NCBI GenBank assembly: GCA_027858835.1
Contig: JAQIBY010000060.1
Span: 1-38,000 of the forward strand
Length of the DNA stretch: 38,000 nt
Direction of reading: 5' to 3'
DNA from: Bacteroidales bacterium
GTDB lineage: Bacteria > Bacteroidota > Bacteroidia > Bacteroidales > ML635J-15
Part shown: piece after piece, positions 25,928 through 33,828 of the stretch
How the letters are laid out: every line of letters starts with the position of its first letter
How positions within the stretch are numbered: the first letter of the stretch is position 1
The notes under the pieces: generated by a model
Seen by the model: only the letters and a program-made list of their open reading frames with translations
Told to the model about the DNA's origin: nothing
Database searches by the model: none
Position numbers and translations under genes: made by a program

Positions 25928-27412
25928 ATGGGAGTTATTGCCAGACAAAGTGTAAAAGGCTCAATTTACAATTATTTAGGAGCAGCGGTTGCCTTCCTGA
26001 ATACCTTGTTTTTAATGCCAATCTTATTTAGCACTAATCAAGTTGGTTTAATTAATGTGCTTTTGGCAATAAGCTCAATGGTTGCTCAATTTTCAACATT
26101 GGGAGTCAATTATGTTAATATACGACTCTTTCCTTACTTTAAAACAAAAGACAAGTACCACAAAGGCTTTGCTCGTTTGATTTTAATATTTTCTATTGCA
26201 GGTATTGCAATTTCAACAAGCTGGTTTTTTCTCTTTAAAGGAAACATCATTTCCAGTAATATTGAAAAAGCGCCTCTGCTTTCAGAGAATGTATATTACT
26301 TGATTCCCATGATTATTGCTTCTTTGACTTACCTTATTCTTGACGGATATTTTCGCTCAATTTATAAAGCAAGTACATCAATTTTCTTTCGCGAATTATT
26401 TATGCGCTTATTAATCTTTTTTGGATTAATGCTTTATAAATTTAATTTGATTGATTTTCAAAACTTTTTGAATTATTACATGCTGGCTTTTGTCTCTCCA
26501 AGTATTATAATGTTTGCATATCTTATTCGGATTGGAGAGTTTAAAGTCAGAGCAAAATTTAGAGATTTGCCACCAAATATTTGGAGATTAGTTGCAAGTG
26601 TTGCCTTTTTTGGAATGATTTCTGGTTTTACAAATATCTCCATTATGAACATGGATAAATTCCTGATAAGTAAATATCTTGATTTAAGTTCAGCGGGGAT
26701 TTATGCCGTATCTTTTTACTTTGGGACAATGATTCTCATTCCAGGGAAAGCAGTACGAAGGATTTCTTCTGCCGTAATTAGCGAGGGATTTCAAAACAAT
26801 GACCTCAATAAGGTGAAAATGGTTTACGTAAAAAGTAATTTAAATATGTTCATTGGGGGTTTGATTCTATTTGTTTTTCTCTGGGCAAACATCCATAATA
26901 TTTTGAGAATTTTACCGCCTGAATATGCGGCTGGTAAATGGGCAATTTTCATTATCGCAAGTGCATTTGTTCTCAATATGATTTCAGGCTTGAGCAATCA
27001 AGTCATCCTATACTCCAGCGCTTATCGACTACACTCCTTTATTATGTTGGGACTGCTTGCAATACTTATTGTTTCCAACATCATTCTGATTCCCAAAATG
27101 GGGCTGGAAGGTGCTGCTCTGGCAACTTTTATTACCTATTTAATTGATATGTTGTTTAAATGGATTTTTATCTGGAGAAAGTTTAACATTCAACCATTTC
27201 AATGGAAACACTTTTTTATTTTTCTTATTGCAGTTTCAATTTACGCACTATCATTGCTTCTACCCGAGTTATCACTCATTCCAGACATGATTATCAGAAG
27301 TGCAGGAATTGGAATCTTATTTATTATCGGAATACGTGTTTTCAAGCTCTCTGATGATTTGAACGCAATTATTGACAGAGCACTTGAAATTCTACATTTG
27401 AAATCGAGATAA
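25928..27412 (+). CDS. Polysaccharide flippase (Wzx/MVF-type)
   Basis: 494-aa integral membrane protein with about 12-14 hydrophobic helices and very few charged stretches, beginning ARQSVKGSIYNYLGAAVAFL. This opening, the NMDKFLISKYLDLSSAGIYA motif near 240-260, and the C-terminal half matching the polysaccharide-biosynthesis C domain mark it as an oligosaccharide flippase of the MOP superfamily. It would move a lipid-linked glycan across the inner membrane. It stands at the head of the LicD/sulfotransferase/CDP-alcohol region, so its cargo is probably the decorated glycan proposed there; that link is by neighbourhood only. Confidence 0.88.
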   Translation: MGVIARQSVKGSIYNYLGAAVAFLNTLFLMPILFSTNQVGLINVLLAISSMVAQFSTLGVNYVNIRLFPYFKTKDKYHKGFARLILIFSIAGIAISTSWFFLFKGNIISSNIEKAPLLSENVYYLIPMIIASLTYLILDGYFRSIYKASTSIFFRELFMRLLIFFGLMLYKFNLIDFQNFLNYYMLAFVSPSIIMFAYLIRIGEFKVRAKFRDLPPNIWRLVASVAFFGMISGFTNISIMNMDKFLISKYLDLSSAGIYAVSFYFGTMILIPGKAVRRISSAVISEGFQNNDLNKVKMVYVKSNLNMFIGGLILFVFLWANIHNILRILPPEYAAGKWAIFIIASAFVLNMISGLSNQVILYSSAYRLHSFIMLGLLAILIVSNIILIPKMGLEGAALATFITYLIDMLFKWIFIWRKFNIQPFQWKHFFIFLIAVSIYALSLLLPELSLIPDMIIRSAGIGILFIIGIRVFKLSDDLNAIIDRALEILHLKSR

Positions 27413-27539: not shown

Positions 27540-28343
27540 ATGAATGAAGATTTTTCGAAATACAATGGAGAAAATACGGTATTAAGAAAAGCCCAGCTTC
27601 GATTGCTTGATATGCTTTTAGAACTTGATAAAATCTGTAAAAAACATAATATTCCTTACTGGATTGATGGAGGTTCCACCTTGGGGGCTCTGCGTCATGA
27701 TGGATTTATTCCTTGGGATGATGATATTGATATTGCTTTATTGAGGAAAGATTATCGTAAACTCACTAAGATTTTAAAAGTAGAATTGCCGGAAAATTTG
27801 GTTTTGCAAAATCATAAAAACGAAAAGCATTATCACATGCTTTATGCGCGAGTTGTTGACAAACACTCTTTGGCAGATTATGGTGTGGAAAAGGCGCCAT
27901 TCCGAAAACACTTTAAATATCAAGGGCTCTTTTTGGATATTTTCTACATCGATCGAGGGAGTCTGGGATTAAAACGATTTGTCGATTTCTTTTACTTTAT
28001 CTCATTTCGCATTATCCGAAAACATAACAAACGAGGAAACAACAAGCTCATGTGGTTATTTTCTCACCTTGTTTGGCTTACATCACGATTTTTTGTCTTT
28101 AGCTTACGCAGATTGTCCTTTTTGTTTCCAAAAGACAAATTGATATATGGTTTCGGCGTTCCTTACAATTGGGAATTTCGCAGACACGAAATTCTGCCTG
28201 TTAAACCTATTAAATTTGAAGGAAAAACCGTTTCCGGACCATCTGATACACACGCTTATTTAACGCGTTGCTTTGGGAATTACATGGAAATACCTCCGAA
28301 AGATCAAAGACCAGCACATGCAAAAACCATTAAAGTCTATTAA
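27540..28343 (+). CDS. LicD-family phospho-ligand transferase
   Basis: 267-aa protein of the LicD/fukutin nucleotidyltransferase-fold family, whose members transfer phosphocholine, phosphoribitol or related groups from a CDP donor to sugars. Signature: WIDGGSTLGALRHDGFIPWD followed by DDIDI (41-65), with the acidic metal site D60-D64. It also has the C-terminal YNWEFRRHEILPVKP and a final GNYMEIPPKDQR segment typical of the family. It is followed by a sulfotransferase gene (9 bases) and a nucleotidyltransferase-aminotransferase fusion that could make its CDP donor. Substrate not determinable; there are no licA or licB homologues nearby, so choline is not the obvious choice. Confidence 0.9.
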   Translation: MNEDFSKYNGENTVLRKAQLRLLDMLLELDKICKKHNIPYWIDGGSTLGALRHDGFIPWDDDIDIALLRKDYRKLTKILKVELPENLVLQNHKNEKHYHMLYARVVDKHSLADYGVEKAPFRKHFKYQGLFLDIFYIDRGSLGLKRFVDFFYFISFRIIRKHNKRGNNKLMWLFSHLVWLTSRFFVFSLRRLSFLFPKDKLIYGFGVPYNWEFRRHEILPVKPIKFEGKTVSGPSDTHAYLTRCFGNYMEIPPKDQRPAHAKTIKVY

Positions 28344-28352
28344 TTAAAAACT

Positions 28353-29264
28353 ATGACACAAAAACGACCAAATCTCTTTATTGTCGGAGCTGCAAAATGC
28401 GGCACAACATCAATATACTATCATTTAATGAAGCATCCTGATATCCATTTTTGCAAAGTGGTTAAAGAGCCATATTACTTTTCAACGAAATATGCCCAAA
28501 TACCTCATCATGGAAAAGAAGATGAAATCAATGATGAAAAACGCACGGGTTTAGCAAGTTTTGATGATTATTTGAAACTATTTAAAGAAGCAAAGGATGA
28601 AAAAATCATTGGGGAAGCATCTACTGATTATTTGTATTTCTATCAGGTAGCAGATGATATCAAAGCAATGAACCCTGATGCGAAAATTATTATCAGTTTA
28701 AGAAATCCTGTGGATAGAGCATTTTCTGCTTATTATCATCAAGTCAGTAAAGACAGAGAAAAGCTTTCGTTCGAGAAGGCACTTGAAGCAGAAGAAAGTC
28801 GAATTAAAGACAATTACAGTTTCATCTGGAGATATAAAGATGTTGGCTTGTACTCAAAAAGAGTGAAACACTTTCTGGATGTTTTTGGTCCTGAAAAAGT
28901 AAAAATTATTCTATTTGACGACATCAAAAATGATATTACCTCTGTTGTACACGAGGTGTTGGAATTTCTCGAACTGGATACAAATTTAAAAGTTAATGCT
29001 TCTGAAAAACACAGAGCTACAGGTGTATATCGCTTTAAAAAATTCAATGATTTGATGTTTAAGAAAACCTTTGTGCGTAAAATTTTGCAAAAAGTATTAT
29101 CGCAAAAAGCAAGAAATCGTTTGTTATTGAAACTCACAAATGTCAATCTGAAGAAACCTCAGATGAATCCAAATACACGGAAATATTTAATCGATTATTT
29201 CAAAGAAGATATTCTTGAAACTGAAAAAATTATTGGAAGAGATTTACAACATTGGTTGAAATAA
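28353..29264 (+). CDS. PAPS-dependent sulfotransferase
   Basis: 303-aa cytoplasmic sulfotransferase of the Golgi/heparan-type fold. The 5'-phosphosulfate loop GAAKCGTTSIYYHL (12-25) and the 3'-phosphate motif ISLRNPVDRAFSAYYHQ (114-130, with R117 and S125) are both intact. EPYYFST (39-45) follows the first, as in related glycan sulfotransferases. Acceptor probably a sugar of the surface polymer, judging by the LicD and flippase neighbours. PAPS-synthesis genes (cysD, cysN, cysC) are not in the window. It lies 9 bases after the LicD gene and 50 bases before the fusion gene. Confidence 0.9.
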   Translation: MTQKRPNLFIVGAAKCGTTSIYYHLMKHPDIHFCKVVKEPYYFSTKYAQIPHHGKEDEINDEKRTGLASFDDYLKLFKEAKDEKIIGEASTDYLYFYQVADDIKAMNPDAKIIISLRNPVDRAFSAYYHQVSKDREKLSFEKALEAEESRIKDNYSFIWRYKDVGLYSKRVKHFLDVFGPEKVKIILFDDIKNDITSVVHEVLEFLELDTNLKVNASEKHRATGVYRFKKFNDLMFKKTFVRKILQKVLSQKARNRLLLKLTNVNLKKPQMNPNTRKYLIDYFKEDILETEKIIGRDLQHWLK

Positions 29265-29314: not shown

Positions 29315-31144
29315 ATGCAAGCAATTATTTTAGCCGCCGGAATGGGTAAACGACTGAAGGACTTAACAAAAGATCGTACTAAATGCATGGTAAAAGTTAA
29401 TGGGGTGACTCTCATTGAGCGAATGCTGCGGCAAATTGATGCGTTAAACACATCAAAAATAGTTGTGGTTGTTGGTTATCACGGTCAGGAGTTAATTGAT
29501 TTTATTTCTTCATTGCATATTAAAACGCCTATTGAGTTTATAGACAACAAGATATACGACAAAACAAACAATATTTACTCACTTTACATGGCAAAAAATG
29601 ATTTGCTTAGTGATGATACTTTGTTGTTTGAATCCGATTTGATTTTCGAAGACAGTGTATTGCAACGCATTGTAAATGATCCACATCCAAATCTTACACT
29701 TGTCTCAAAATATGAGAGTTGGATGGATGGAACCGTTGTTACCATTGATGATGACAATAACATTACCAGTTTTTTAGGTAAAAACAATTTCAATTTCAAT
29801 CATATTTCAGAATACTACAAAACCGTAAATATTTATAAGTTTAGTAAAGCGTTTTCCAATACACATTATGTTCCATTTTTAGAGGCATACAGCAAAGCGT
29901 TGGGAAATAATGAATATTACGAGCAGGTTCTGAAGGTCATTACTCCACTGGATAAACCGGAAATCAAAGCCTTGCCACTAGACAATGAAAAATGGTATGA
30001 AATCGATGACATCCAAGATTTGGATATCGCCGAAAGCATCTTTACTCAATCAAATTCAGAAAAGCTACAACGCATACAAAAACGATATGGTGGATATTGG
30101 AGATACCCTCAACTTATCGACTTCTGTTATCTCGTAAATCCATATTTTCCTCCACAAAAATTGATGGATGAAATTAAGGTGAATTTTGAACAGCTTTTAA
30201 CAGAATATCCATCCGGAATGGATGTTAACAGCTTGTTGATTGCAAAGTATTTCGATATGGACATTAAGCATGTTTGCGTCGGAAATGGAGCAGCTGAGAT
30301 TATCAAGTCAATTACAGGCAAATTGAATGGCAAATTTGGCATTGTTATTCCAACTTTTGAAGAATATCCAAATCGCCTTACTAAAGAGGACATTATACAT
30401 TACAAGCCTCAAAATGCCGATTACAAGTACGGTGCTGATGAGTTGATTGAGTTTTTCAGCAAATCTGACAATCAAATATCAAATTTAGTCCTTATCAATC
30501 CGGATAATCCGTCAGGAAATTTTTTGGATAAGAATGATGTACTGAAACTTGTGGAATGGACGAAAGCCAAAAACATGAATATTATTCTGGATGAATCATT
30601 TATTGATTTTGCAGAATCCAGCAAGAGTGAAAGTCTTCTCCTTAGAGAAATTATCCAAAAATATTCCAATCTTATTCTGATTAAAAGTATTTCTAAATCT
30701 TTTGGTGTGCCAGGACTTCGTTTAGGTTTTGCTGCATCATCAAATACAGATTTGATTCAGTTCATGAAAAAGGACTTATCAATTTGGAACATTAATTCAT
30801 TCGCTGAATTCTACTTGCAAATTGCTGAAAAATACCGGTCAGATTATTGGTCTGCTATTGAGCGTTTCAAAACTGAACGCCAACTATTCATAGATAAATT
30901 AAGTCAGCTGGAGATTATCCGCCCAATTGAAACGCAATCCAATTATTTTTTGTGTGAAGTCTTTGGATCTGCTCAAGAATTGACAGAAAAACTCTTAAGT
31001 AATTATAACGTATTTATTAAAGATCTATCCTCTAAAAAGGGCTTTGAAGGGAAAGAGTACATTCGAATAAGTATTAAAACCCAAGAGGAAAACAATAAGT
31101 TAATTGATGCACTAAAGCATATTCAAGAAGCAGCGCATAAATAG
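29315..31144 (+). CDS. Fusion: LicC-like nucleotidyltransferase + HisC/CobD-like PLP aminotransferase
   Basis: 609 aa. Residues 1-245 are a sugar/phosphocholine-type nucleotidyltransferase: IILAAGMGKRLKDLT (4-18), DRTKCMVKVNG (20-30), metal Asp108 in FESDLIF, and WYEIDDIQDL (227-236). Residues 255-609 are a fold-type I aminotransferase with NPDNPSG (395-401), D427 in ILDESFIDFAES, PLP lysine K461 in SISKSFGVPGLRLGF, and R585. DESFIDF and WNIN resemble CobD (threonine-phosphate decarboxylase) and HisC. One chain could therefore produce an amino-alcohol phosphate and activate it with CTP, for example CDP-ethanolamine from phosphoserine, feeding LicD. That reaction is inference; transamination of a phospho-keto compound is equally open. 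Last gene of the plus-strand run; its 3' end is 6 bases from the convergent gene. Confidence 0.88.
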   Translation: MQAIILAAGMGKRLKDLTKDRTKCMVKVNGVTLIERMLRQIDALNTSKIVVVVGYHGQELIDFISSLHIKTPIEFIDNKIYDKTNNIYSLYMAKNDLLSDDTLLFESDLIFEDSVLQRIVNDPHPNLTLVSKYESWMDGTVVTIDDDNNITSFLGKNNFNFNHISEYYKTVNIYKFSKAFSNTHYVPFLEAYSKALGNNEYYEQVLKVITPLDKPEIKALPLDNEKWYEIDDIQDLDIAESIFTQSNSEKLQRIQKRYGGYWRYPQLIDFCYLVNPYFPPQKLMDEIKVNFEQLLTEYPSGMDVNSLLIAKYFDMDIKHVCVGNGAAEIIKSITGKLNGKFGIVIPTFEEYPNRLTKEDIIHYKPQNADYKYGADELIEFFSKSDNQISNLVLINPDNPSGNFLDKNDVLKLVEWTKAKNMNIILDESFIDFAESSKSESLLLREIIQKYSNLILIKSISKSFGVPGLRLGFAASSNTDLIQFMKKDLSIWNINSFAEFYLQIAEKYRSDYWSAIERFKTERQLFIDKLSQLEIIRPIETQSNYFLCEVFGSAQELTEKLLSNYNVFIKDLSSKKGFEGKEYIRISIKTQEENNKLIDALKHIQEAAHK

Positions 31145-31150
31145 TGATAT

Positions 31151-32500
31151 TTAAAACGTAATAATTGTTTGCTGTTCTTTTTGCTTATGAAAAGTATCAA
31201 TAATTTCTGTCACAATTATTGAAGTTTTCTGGCTGTGTTTCCAGCTTTCCTTCTGACCATTTTGAATCAGATCAATAAACTCAGCCAATTCATAACGCAA
31301 ACCGTCACCATAAAATTTATGGAAATACTTGCTATTGTTTGCCGGATTTTCAAAGCGCACTTCAAATTCCTGTGTTTTCCACCATGGAGCAGGAACATAA
31401 ACATATCCTTTTGTTCCGGAGATTGTCATCATGCCTTCCGATTTTACGCCAAGCCCAACTTTCGCCGTTGCAACTGCGTGTTTGTATTGCAGATGAATTC
31501 TGGAAAACATATCAATGGAATCCTTAAAATATGCTTCATTGCGTTGGGCAATTGGTTTTCCGAGTAATTGAACAATTGCCGTTAAGGGATAAGTTGATAA
31601 TTCATTAACACTTCCACCAAATCCGTTATTTTTCATTTCCCGTGTATTGGGATCAGCTAGTTTGGTAAAACATGCCTCGACAGATTTAATGTTCCCGATG
31701 ATTCCTGATTTTGCAATTTCAACCAAGCGAATAAACCCGGGAGCATAAGAGGTTTTAACCGCCTCTATAATCACTGCCTGATTAGCTTCTGCCACTTGGA
31801 AAAGTGCATTTAATTCACTAACAGACAAACAGATGGGTTTCTCACATAAAACATGAATGCCTTTTTCTAATGCTTTTTTTGCCATTTCAAAATGCATTTG
31901 ATGCGGAGTTGCAATATACACGGCATCAACATTTTCCAGTAACAATTCATAATTATCTGTATGAAGATGGAGTTCATATTGTTCTGCAAATCGCTTGGCG
32001 TTTTCAGCTTTAGCTGAACAAACACCAACAATTTGGCAACCGCTCACAAATTTTGATTCAGGAATGAAACGTTGAGCAATCCGTCCTGTCCCAACAACAC
32101 CAAGACTTATAATCTTATGTTTAGCATTCCGCAATTCGGTGCTGGAAATATCTTTTGTGCGCTCAAGATATACCACCTCGCAGTATTCTTTTAAATAATC
32201 AAAACGACCCAGCCAATCAGAACCAATAACAAAAGTGTCAACTTCATACTTTTGCACATCGGAAATTTTTTGTCCCTGATAATTTTCAACAATAATTTGG
32301 TCTGCCAAGCCCGTATCTTTCACATTTTCTATACGTTGCTCCAAACTCTCCTCAACATTTAATTTTCCCCGGTCAAGATCATATTGTTCGCCGGTTACCC
32401 CAACAATGAGCTTGTCGCCCAATGCTTTCGCCCGTTTTAAAATATTTATATGTCCTTTATGGATTAAATCAAATGTACCGTATGTAACGACTGTTTTCAT
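31151..32500 (-). CDS. Fusion: TagD-like cytidylyltransferase + Gfo/Idh/MocA oxidoreductase
   Basis: 449 aa. Residues 1-125 are a glycerol-3-phosphate cytidylyltransferase-type domain: VVTYGTFDLIHKGHI (4-18, the HxGH motif H14/H17), FVIGSDW (90-96) and RTKDISSTELRN (114-125), the counterpart of the RTEGISTT motif. Residues 129-449 are a Gfo/Idh/MocA-type NAD(P) oxidoreductase: LGVVGTGRIAQRF (133-145), CEKPICLS (219-226) and GGSVNELSTYPLTAI. Combining a reductase with a CTP transferase recalls the Bcs1-type enzymes that make CDP-ribitol, but from unrelated families. A likely outcome is a CDP-polyol, used by the TagB/TagF-type transferase encoded just upstream in the same operon (55-base gap). 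The exact polyol cannot be named. Confidence 0.9.
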   Translation of the reverse strand: MKTVVTYGTFDLIHKGHINILKRAKALGDKLIVGVTGEQYDLDRGKLNVEESLEQRIENVKDTGLADQIIVENYQGQKISDVQKYEVDTFVIGSDWLGRFDYLKEYCEVVYLERTKDISSTELRNAKHKIISLGVVGTGRIAQRFIPESKFVSGCQIVGVCSAKAENAKRFAEQYELHLHTDNYELLLENVDAVYIATPHQMHFEMAKKALEKGIHVLCEKPICLSVSELNALFQVAEANQAVIIEAVKTSYAPGFIRLVEIAKSGIIGNIKSVEACFTKLADPNTREMKNNGFGGSVNELSTYPLTAIVQLLGKPIAQRNEAYFKDSIDMFSRIHLQYKHAVATAKVGLGVKSEGMMTISGTKGYVYVPAPWWKTQEFEVRFENPANNSKYFHKFYGDGLRYELAEFIDLIQNGQKESWKHSQKTSIIVTEIIDTFHKQKEQQTIITF

Positions 32501-32555: not shown

Positions 32556-33737
32556 TTATTTTCTGAGTAGAGTAAATAACCGCTCAGAAGATTTTCCATC
32601 CTGATAAGTAAATGATAAATTCAATATATCTTTACGTGCTGCTTGATAATTATCTTTCCCATTAAAACAAGCTTTAAGTGCTGTTTCCAGTTCTATTTGA
32701 TTAATGCATTTTTCTCCGGGAGCTGTTTGATAAAAATCCGTGCGTAAGCCCACTTCCTGTTTTTGATAGGCTTCAAAATCCGGAATAAAGAAAATTACCG
32801 GCCGATTTGTCAGCAAATAATCAATATAAATGGATGAATAATCGGTAATCATCGCATCACAAATCTTCATTAATGGATAAACATCCTTGCTTTTATCATA
32901 AATAAAAACATTGGACAGATTCTCCGTATAAGGCACCGGGCTTAAAATATGATATTTCAACACCAACAGAAGTTTATTGTCCTGACAAAATTGATTCATT
33001 CGTGCAAAATCAATAAAATTCATGCTTAAATGAGTTCTGTAGGTGGGTGTGTACAAAACAATCTTTGTTTTTTCGTTTTCAGGTTGCTTTATAAGCCTGT
33101 CCAACAATAGTTTATCTGCATTAATGAAATCTACGTCATTTAATTCACGAAAGAAAATATCATTACGTGATTGCCCGATGGGTAAAATGGATTTATGGCG
33201 AAAGGCATTTTTGTACAAATGCTCTGAGTAATAATCAGAAGTGGAAGCAATTAACTCGTACCGCACGATTTGCCCTCGAAGTATGCCATAGCATTTCCGA
33301 AAAAATCGCCATTTCGATTTTGTAAATTGATCGGTATCCAACTCTATTTTCTTTGAACTGACCCCATGCCATAATTGAATTTTAGCTGCTTTTATTGCAA
33401 AAAACGATTTAAAATTGTAAAACCAGGTTGAGGTATCCACAATAAGATAATCTGCACGCATTAATAAAAACACGGCTCGCCATGATGGATAAAACACGGC
33501 ATTCGGAATGGATTGAGTCGCCGGATTTTTGGTTTCAAACACAAAATGCGCATTCTGATACGGTAAATTAAGGAGATAATTATTAAAATATTTTGTGTTG
33601 TCACTGTAATAGCTTGCATCTCGGCCAATAAGAATGTAAAGTCCCTTTTTTTTGGGAACAAGCAATGAAACCGGAACGATGAGGAGCCATCCGAAAATAA
33701 TAGTAACTACTGATATCAAGCGCTCAAGCTGTTTCAT
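32556..33737 (-). CDS. CDP-glycerol:polyol-phosphate transferase (TagB/TagF family)
   Basis: 393 aa from ATG 33737. An upstream in-frame ATG at 33818 adds 27 Cys/Phe-rich residues unlike the family and is rejected. A membrane-binding hydrophobic segment (about 8-27) is followed by the Glyphos_transf domain: KIQLWHGVSSKKIE with H124, YTPTYRTH (229-236), LKYHILSP with H263, and MITDYSSIYIDYLL (296-309) then RPVIFFIPD. These are the conserved wall-teichoic-acid primase/polymerase motifs. It would transfer a glycerol-phosphate-like unit from a CDP donor made by the next gene. Teichoic acids as such are not expected in a Gram-negative cell, so a single or few-unit substitution of a capsule or O-glycan is more likely. 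Confidence 0.9.
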   Translation of the reverse strand: MKQLERLISVVTIIFGWLLIVPVSLLVPKKKGLYILIGRDASYYSDNTKYFNNYLLNLPYQNAHFVFETKNPATQSIPNAVFYPSWRAVFLLMRADYLIVDTSTWFYNFKSFFAIKAAKIQLWHGVSSKKIELDTDQFTKSKWRFFRKCYGILRGQIVRYELIASTSDYYSEHLYKNAFRHKSILPIGQSRNDIFFRELNDVDFINADKLLLDRLIKQPENEKTKIVLYTPTYRTHLSMNFIDFARMNQFCQDNKLLLVLKYHILSPVPYTENLSNVFIYDKSKDVYPLMKICDAMITDYSSIYIDYLLTNRPVIFFIPDFEAYQKQEVGLRTDFYQTAPGEKCINQIELETALKACFNGKDNYQAARKDILNLSFTYQDGKSSERLFTLLRK

Positions 33738-33828
33738 ATGCAATGCGAAGTGAAAATAAATATTTCGACTGAAAATACATAAAAAGTGGGGAAAACAAAA
33801 ACAGGGATTAAGTTGCATTTAGCAGATT

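Follow-up and report, generated by a model that had tools for sequence, protein, structure and literature searches.

A predicted cytidylyltransferase–decarboxylase fusion near a LicD gene in Bacteroidales and a proposed route from O-phosphoserine to CDP-ethanolamine

Our analysis covered a 38,000-nt stretch of DNA from a Bacteroidales bacterium (the window), in which four genes follow each other on the forward strand with short gaps. The first encodes a Wzx-like polysaccharide flippase (25928–27412), which has no Pfam match and was recognized by a weak NCBIfam match to HfsF. It is followed by two genes assigned by Pfam, encoding a LicD-family phosphotransferase (27540–28343) and a sulfotransferase-domain protein (28353–29264). 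The last gene of the series (29315–31144), which has the LicD gene two genes upstream, is one intact open reading frame with an ATG start and encodes a bifunctional fusion protein of 609 amino acids. Two convergent genes on the reverse strand, both identified by Pfam and NCBIfam, come next: a second fused CDP-alcohol enzyme, in which a TagD-like glycerol-3-phosphate cytidylyltransferase is joined to a Gfo/Idh/MocA oxidoreductase (31151–32500), adjoins the first, and a CDP-glycerol glycerophosphotransferase of the TagB/TagF type (32556–33818) lies beside it. Thus, CDP-alcohol chemistry is already in use in this neighbourhood.

The fusion consists of an N-terminal cytidylyltransferase-type domain (residues 1–245; 29315–30049), recognized by PDB matches and conserved residues, and a C-terminal fold-type-I PLP domain of the decarboxylase-like SMUL_1544/CobD type (residues 263–605; 30101–31129). 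Pfam assigns NTP_transf_3 to residues 3–126 (8.8e-10) and Aminotran_1_2 to residues 309–600 (2e-31). Together with the intact reading frame and full-length homologues, these matches to both halves bear out a first-pass annotation of the sequence, which had described a nucleotidyltransferase fused to a PLP enzyme; the motifs it quoted lie at residues 426–432 (DESFIDF), 465–471 (VPGLRLG) and 491–494 (WNIN). The full-length homologues, with identities of 31–61%, occur in many genomes of several phyla as well as in viral contigs, which excludes a chance or assembly fusion. A survey of 344 genomes from the same order gave about ten with the fusion (49–61% identity) and about nine in which its halves are adjacent genes; one more Bacteroidota genome has the fusion at 33% identity. 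Outside the phylum, homologues were found in a Clostridiales MAG (44%) and in two genomes from the phylum of that MAG, G1062 (60%) and G1150 (59%), as well as in Fusobacterium vincentii (50%), Gloeothece (35%), Priestia (33%), Pseudonocardia (32%), and Rahnella and Erwinia (31%). Three viral contigs from IMG/VR, with lengths of 321, 47 and 122 kb, also encode full-length fusions with 46–50% identity (L141, 6001–7806; L142, 6001–7815; L143, 6001–7800). The 47-kb contig encodes a phage-type DNA polymerase, and both it and the 122-kb contig carry LicD-family and methyltransferase genes. In the phylogeny of PLP domains described below, the window domain pairs with that of G1062 from the other phylum (support 100/95), which points to horizontal transfer of the fusion gene. 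In genome G678 (L078, 9003–10953), a frameshift lies between the two halves of the fusion and could be an assembly error or a sign of decay.

The identity of the PLP half was addressed by profile, structure and tree comparisons. NCBIfam scored the protein higher for CobD (TIGR01140; 169.9 bits) than for HisC (154.1 bits), both far below the respective cut-offs (290.55 bits for TIGR01140). Its top PDB match is 6OUX, SMUL_1544 (3.6e-41), whose sequence is 100% identical to a Sulfurospirillum sp. SP protein annotated as norcobamide serine-O-phosphate decarboxylase and encoded between cbiB and cobU. A phylogeny with CobD, HisC and phosphoserine decarboxylase, as the first-pass annotation had suggested, comprised 44 rows: fusions, split versions, rhizobial relatives, SMUL_1544, CobD proteins mostly from cobalamin operons, and HisC proteins from E. 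coli and Bacteroidales, four of which are flanked by hisD (4/4) and hisB (3/4). A branch with support 100/98 unites the fusions, split versions, rhizobial relatives and SMUL_1544 and separates them from CobD and HisC; HisC forms a clade of its own (100/100), and an AU test rejected a union of the fusions with HisC (p = 0.003). Within its side of the tree, the position of SMUL_1544, a distant relative of the fusion with 31% identity, is less sure due to its own long branch. DESF and WNIN, previously read as a CobD/HisC signature, are in the alignment common to the fusion and SMUL_1544, whereas CobD mostly carries DEAF/WSVN-type and HisC DEAY/YNVN-type motifs; by clade as well as by both motifs, the domain is of the SMUL_1544 type. 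These results support the assignment of the PLP half to the CobD superfamily as a decarboxylase-type domain rather than a HisC or keto-sugar aminotransferase. Of the CobD/HisC likeness first noted, the superfamily relationship with CobD therefore stands, whereas the clade is apart from both families. HisC itself is ruled out as an identity by the tree and the AU test, a keto-sugar aminotransferase by the tree and a fold of the CobD/HisC rather than the DegT/ArnB type, and a true CobD by the position outside the CobD clade and the 169.9 of 290.55 bits. CobD, a threonine-phosphate decarboxylase, has the fold and the decarboxylase chemistry proposed for the fusion, which however lacks a cobalamin context. 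SMUL_1544, the phosphoserine decarboxylase of norcobamide synthesis in Sulfurospirillum, differs from the window protein in being a stand-alone enzyme of a cobamide operon.

Residues D426, S428, K461, R469, W491, N494 and R584 of the PLP half are invariant across 14 fusions; K461, at the position of CobD K216, is the predicted Schiff-base lysine, and R584 occupies the position of CobD R337. At the position of CobD R323, an arginine is found in CobD, HisC, SMUL_1544 and the rhizobial relatives of L046–L048, whereas most fusions and all split proteins have a lysine (K569 in the window). The anion site thus differs, and we speculate that K569 could reflect a CMP-linked rather than a free-phosphate substrate. 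An AlphaFold model of the fusion, built from five sequences (pLDDT 70.7), has an unreliable domain arrangement, and at full length it matched PntC-AEPT with a TM of about 0.36. For this model, VIA-align gave the highest Z scores to CobD of Salmonella (30.1) and to SMUL_1544 (28.7); HisC-named entries follow at small differences in Z (28.3 and below; named HisC entries with ligands, 26.9 and below). The closeness of the HisC to the CobD profile score and the shared Pfam family Aminotran_1_2 would also suit a transaminase, which might, as the capsule enzyme Cj1437 does, make serinol phosphate from a dihydroxyacetone phosphate-type substrate (PMC12409886) and thereby supply a CDP-serinol-type donor. 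We consider this unlikely, as the domain is placed with a decarboxylase and its union with HisC is rejected.

With high confidence, we conclude that the fusion is a decarboxylase–cytidylyltransferase that makes a CDP-aminoalcohol. As its substrate we infer O-phosphoserine: the protein is probably a bifunctional CDP-ethanolamine synthase, converting O-phosphoserine and CTP to CDP-ethanolamine for use by LicD in glycan decoration. The PLP domain would decarboxylate the phosphoserine unit in the manner of SMUL_1544, and the N-terminal domain would join CMP from CTP to the phosphate. The reaction might proceed via phosphoethanolamine, with decarboxylation first, or via CDP-serine, which is the order described for FrbH. 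The LicD protein encoded two genes upstream would then transfer phosphoethanolamine, perhaps N-modified, onto a surface polysaccharide. Phosphoserine should be available, since a SerC-like gene, which at 419.8 bits falls narrowly short of the cut-off of 443.6, is present in the window genome. Moreover, in Fusobacterium a gene for a DUF1015 protein (L041, 10820–11869) overlaps the 3′ end of the fusion gene; in the PDB, this protein best matches SerK, a free serine kinase from archaea, and this likeness, weak (E = 0.012) and aligned over DGHHR, would be a faint pointer to phosphoserine.

Both phosphoserine and phosphothreonine had been suggested as substrates in the first-pass annotation. The first is favoured by the phosphoserine decarboxylase clade and the SerC-like gene. 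Decarboxylation of O-phosphothreonine, leading to CDP-1-amino-2-propanol, appears improbable although CobD is the best-scoring NCBIfam family and heads the structural list. The true CobD proteins of cobalamin operons fall outside the fusion clade, and a query for a PduX-type threonine kinase, which had no positive control there, gave no match in the window genome. Phosphothreonine is not known as a general metabolite.

For the N-terminal half, the best PDB matches are Treponema denticola PntC (62 bits) and Streptococcus pneumoniae LicC (49 bits), whereas sugar nucleotidyltransferases score at most 27 bits (a chain with a generic name, 36 bits). R13, K23, E106, D108, E203 and D231 are invariant across the 14 fusions. 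K23 aligns with the CTP-binding Lys25 of PntC, whose FrbH counterpart K38 is required for activity, and E106 with Glu104, which in PntC is positioned for contact with the AEP amine (PMC6697681). E203 lies one alignment column from PntC Glu196, and the position of PntC Lys153 (K156 in the window) varies across the fusion family. The catalytic lysine and the acidic amine-binding positions of the LicC/PntC type are thus kept, and these features and the top matches support a likeness to amino-alkylphosph(on)ate cytidylyltransferases rather than sugar-1-phosphate nucleotidyltransferases.

The PntC match, together with the two-domain order shared with FrbH, an enzyme acting on 2-amino-4-phosphonobutyrate, and with PEP mutase genes adjoining rhizobial split relatives, could also indicate a phosphonate enzyme similar to FrbH or PntC, with a CMP-aminoalkylphosphonate as its product. 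We rate the chance of this as slight. The first-pass annotation had noted that no PEP mutase is encoded near the fusion, and we found no TIGR02320 match anywhere in the 99%-complete window genome, which argues against a phosphonate route in the source organism; likewise, none is annotated in 46 kb around the Priestia fusion, for which the annotation table is incomplete. A role in nucleotide-sugar metabolism, with activation of a sugar-1-phosphate by the N-terminal domain and amination of a nucleotide keto-sugar by the PLP domain, is highly improbable despite the polysaccharide setting and archaeal GlmU-type and uridylyltransferase profile matches below cut-off, given the higher PntC and LicC scores and a PLP fold outside the DegT/ArnB sugar aminotransferase family.

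The first-pass annotation had assigned a class V aminotransferase to the known fusions of this type. This is not supported, since in FrbH of FR-900098 biosynthesis in Streptomyces a PLP decarboxylase is already fused to a cytidylyltransferase (PMC8976061, PMC6697681), and the novelty of the window fusion is weaker than the earlier claim. According to its published description, FrbH has an N-terminal cytidylyltransferase followed by a C-terminal PLP decarboxylase-type domain, as in the fusion, and performs cytidylylation first (PMC8976061); its substrate is the CH2 (phosphonate) isostere of O-phosphoserine, the substrate proposed here. However, FrbH belongs to a PEP-mutase phosphonate pathway, whereas the fusion lies with LicD in a glycan locus of a genome without PEP mutase. 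PntC-AEPT of T. denticola (PDB 6PD1/6PD2) is likewise a cytidylyltransferase–PLP fusion with a cell-surface tailoring logic, but it has a class V AEP transaminase, rather than an Aminotran_1_2 domain of the CobD/SMUL type, as its PLP half, and its pathway requires PEP mutase. The LicC/LicD phosphocholine pathway pairs a CDP-aminoalcohol donor with a LicD transferase, as proposed for the window; LicC, however, uses phosphocholine from imported choline, whereas the aminoalcohol of the fusion would arise from phosphoserine within the same protein. In Campylobacter, phosphoserine decarboxylation by Cj1436 feeds another capsule pathway (PMC12409886). No fusion of this kind acting on phosphoserine was found in the open-access literature. 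The architecture is therefore known from FrbH, and the novelty lies in the natural substrate that is likely here, in a function in decorating glycans or lipids, in how broadly the fusion is distributed and in the occurrence of split operons.

The main functional argument for the product comes from the genomic context. A LicD-family gene lies within five genes of the fusion in 13 of 22 loci from several phyla and two viral contigs, with the Pseudonocardia LicD counted by a weak match only, to a profile built in this analysis; the LicD gene beside the fusion of G704 was detected by Pfam search. Three further fusions (Priestia, Rahnella and G460) have a CDP-alcohol phosphatidyltransferase gene nearby or adjoining, and all eight split Bacteroidales loci are operons of the cytidylyltransferase, the PLP protein and a CDP-alcohol phosphatidyltransferase, in that order. 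Both LicD and CDP-alcohol phosphatidyltransferases use CDP-activated alcohols. In G143, the fusion and LicD form a two-gene set flanked by genes unrelated to polysaccharides, so that the pairing does not merely result from shared polysaccharide loci. The Bacteroidota fusion genomes checked have between zero and three LicD genes each, and the single LicD gene found in the window genome is the one two genes from the fusion. No LicD was found in three split and four non-carrier genomes of other families, and two family relatives gave weak matches.

Several observations weigh against the CDP-ethanolamine assignment. SMUL_1544 is distant, most fusions have lysine at the anion site, and rhizobial split relatives of the wider clade lie beside PEP mutase. 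LicD proteins are best known for phosphocholine. Moreover, 6/22 fusion loci have neither LicD nor a CDP-alcohol phosphatidyltransferase nearby, and phosphatidylethanolamine synthesis by Psd is present anyway. A replacement of Psd-based synthesis by the split operon was rejected, as Psd is present in 35/35 genomes tested. From the rhizobial relatives it follows that the wider clade is not restricted to phosphoserine, and its substrate range probably includes phosphonates.

Other neighbours suggest N-modified products at some loci, for example of the choline type by methylation. Gloeothece and two viral contigs have a homologous SAM methyltransferase gene together with the fusion and LicD. An ornithine cyclodeaminase/mu-crystallin family gene directly follows the fusion in two loci (L069, 10790–11734; L073, 4699–5610), and an octopine/opine-dehydrogenase-type gene adjoins it in four (L004, 5514; L072, 8043; L076, 6557; L078, 7993), where a reductive N-alkylation of the aminoalcohol is possible. 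An octopine-dehydrogenase-family gene also adjoins a split rhizobial form (L046, 10804).

We put forward, as evenly balanced between true and false, a broader proposal in which a widespread pathway, spreading horizontally, would lead from O-phosphoserine to CDP-ethanolamine and would require neither ethanolamine, ethanolamine kinase nor phosphatidylserine. The fused form would feed LicD glycan decoration and the split form a CDP-alcohol phosphatidyltransferase, as a bacterial Kennedy-like route to lipids; N-modified variants would occur beside the methyltransferase, opine dehydrogenase and ornithine-cyclodeaminase-type genes. If true, CDP-ethanolamine-type donors for surface decoration would be made without uptake of choline or ethanolamine, by genes present in Bacteroidales, Clostridia-related genomes, Fusobacterium and phage-like contigs. 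Furthermore, a family now named “aminotransferase class I/II-fold PLP-dependent enzyme” would receive a specific annotation, and its associations with LicD, CDP-alcohol phosphatidyltransferase and N-modifying genes would become a testable pathway from one amino-acid intermediate.

On plasmid pBM700 of Priestia megaterium (L043, 5954–11638), the fusion occurs with a CDP-alcohol phosphatidyltransferase, a copy of DXP reductoisomerase, an AAC(3)-family acetyltransferase and a putative N-monooxygenase; Rahnella (L045) has relatives of the Priestia monooxygenase, acetyltransferase and ATP-grasp protein. Fosfoxacin is a phosphate analogue of fosmidomycin. As a lead, the Priestia locus is possibly a cluster for a phosphate-type DXR inhibitor, to which a phosphoserine-derived fosfoxacin-like compound would fit. 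In two other loci (L087, 7939–11747; L140, 6733–10873), a stand-alone SMUL_1544-like PLP gene belongs to a conserved set of four, whose other members encode a glutamine synthetase of the GlnII type and two proteins resembling gamma-glutamyl hydrolase and HAD proteins, respectively. The set perhaps provides a gamma-glutamyl-ethanolamine-phosphate route.
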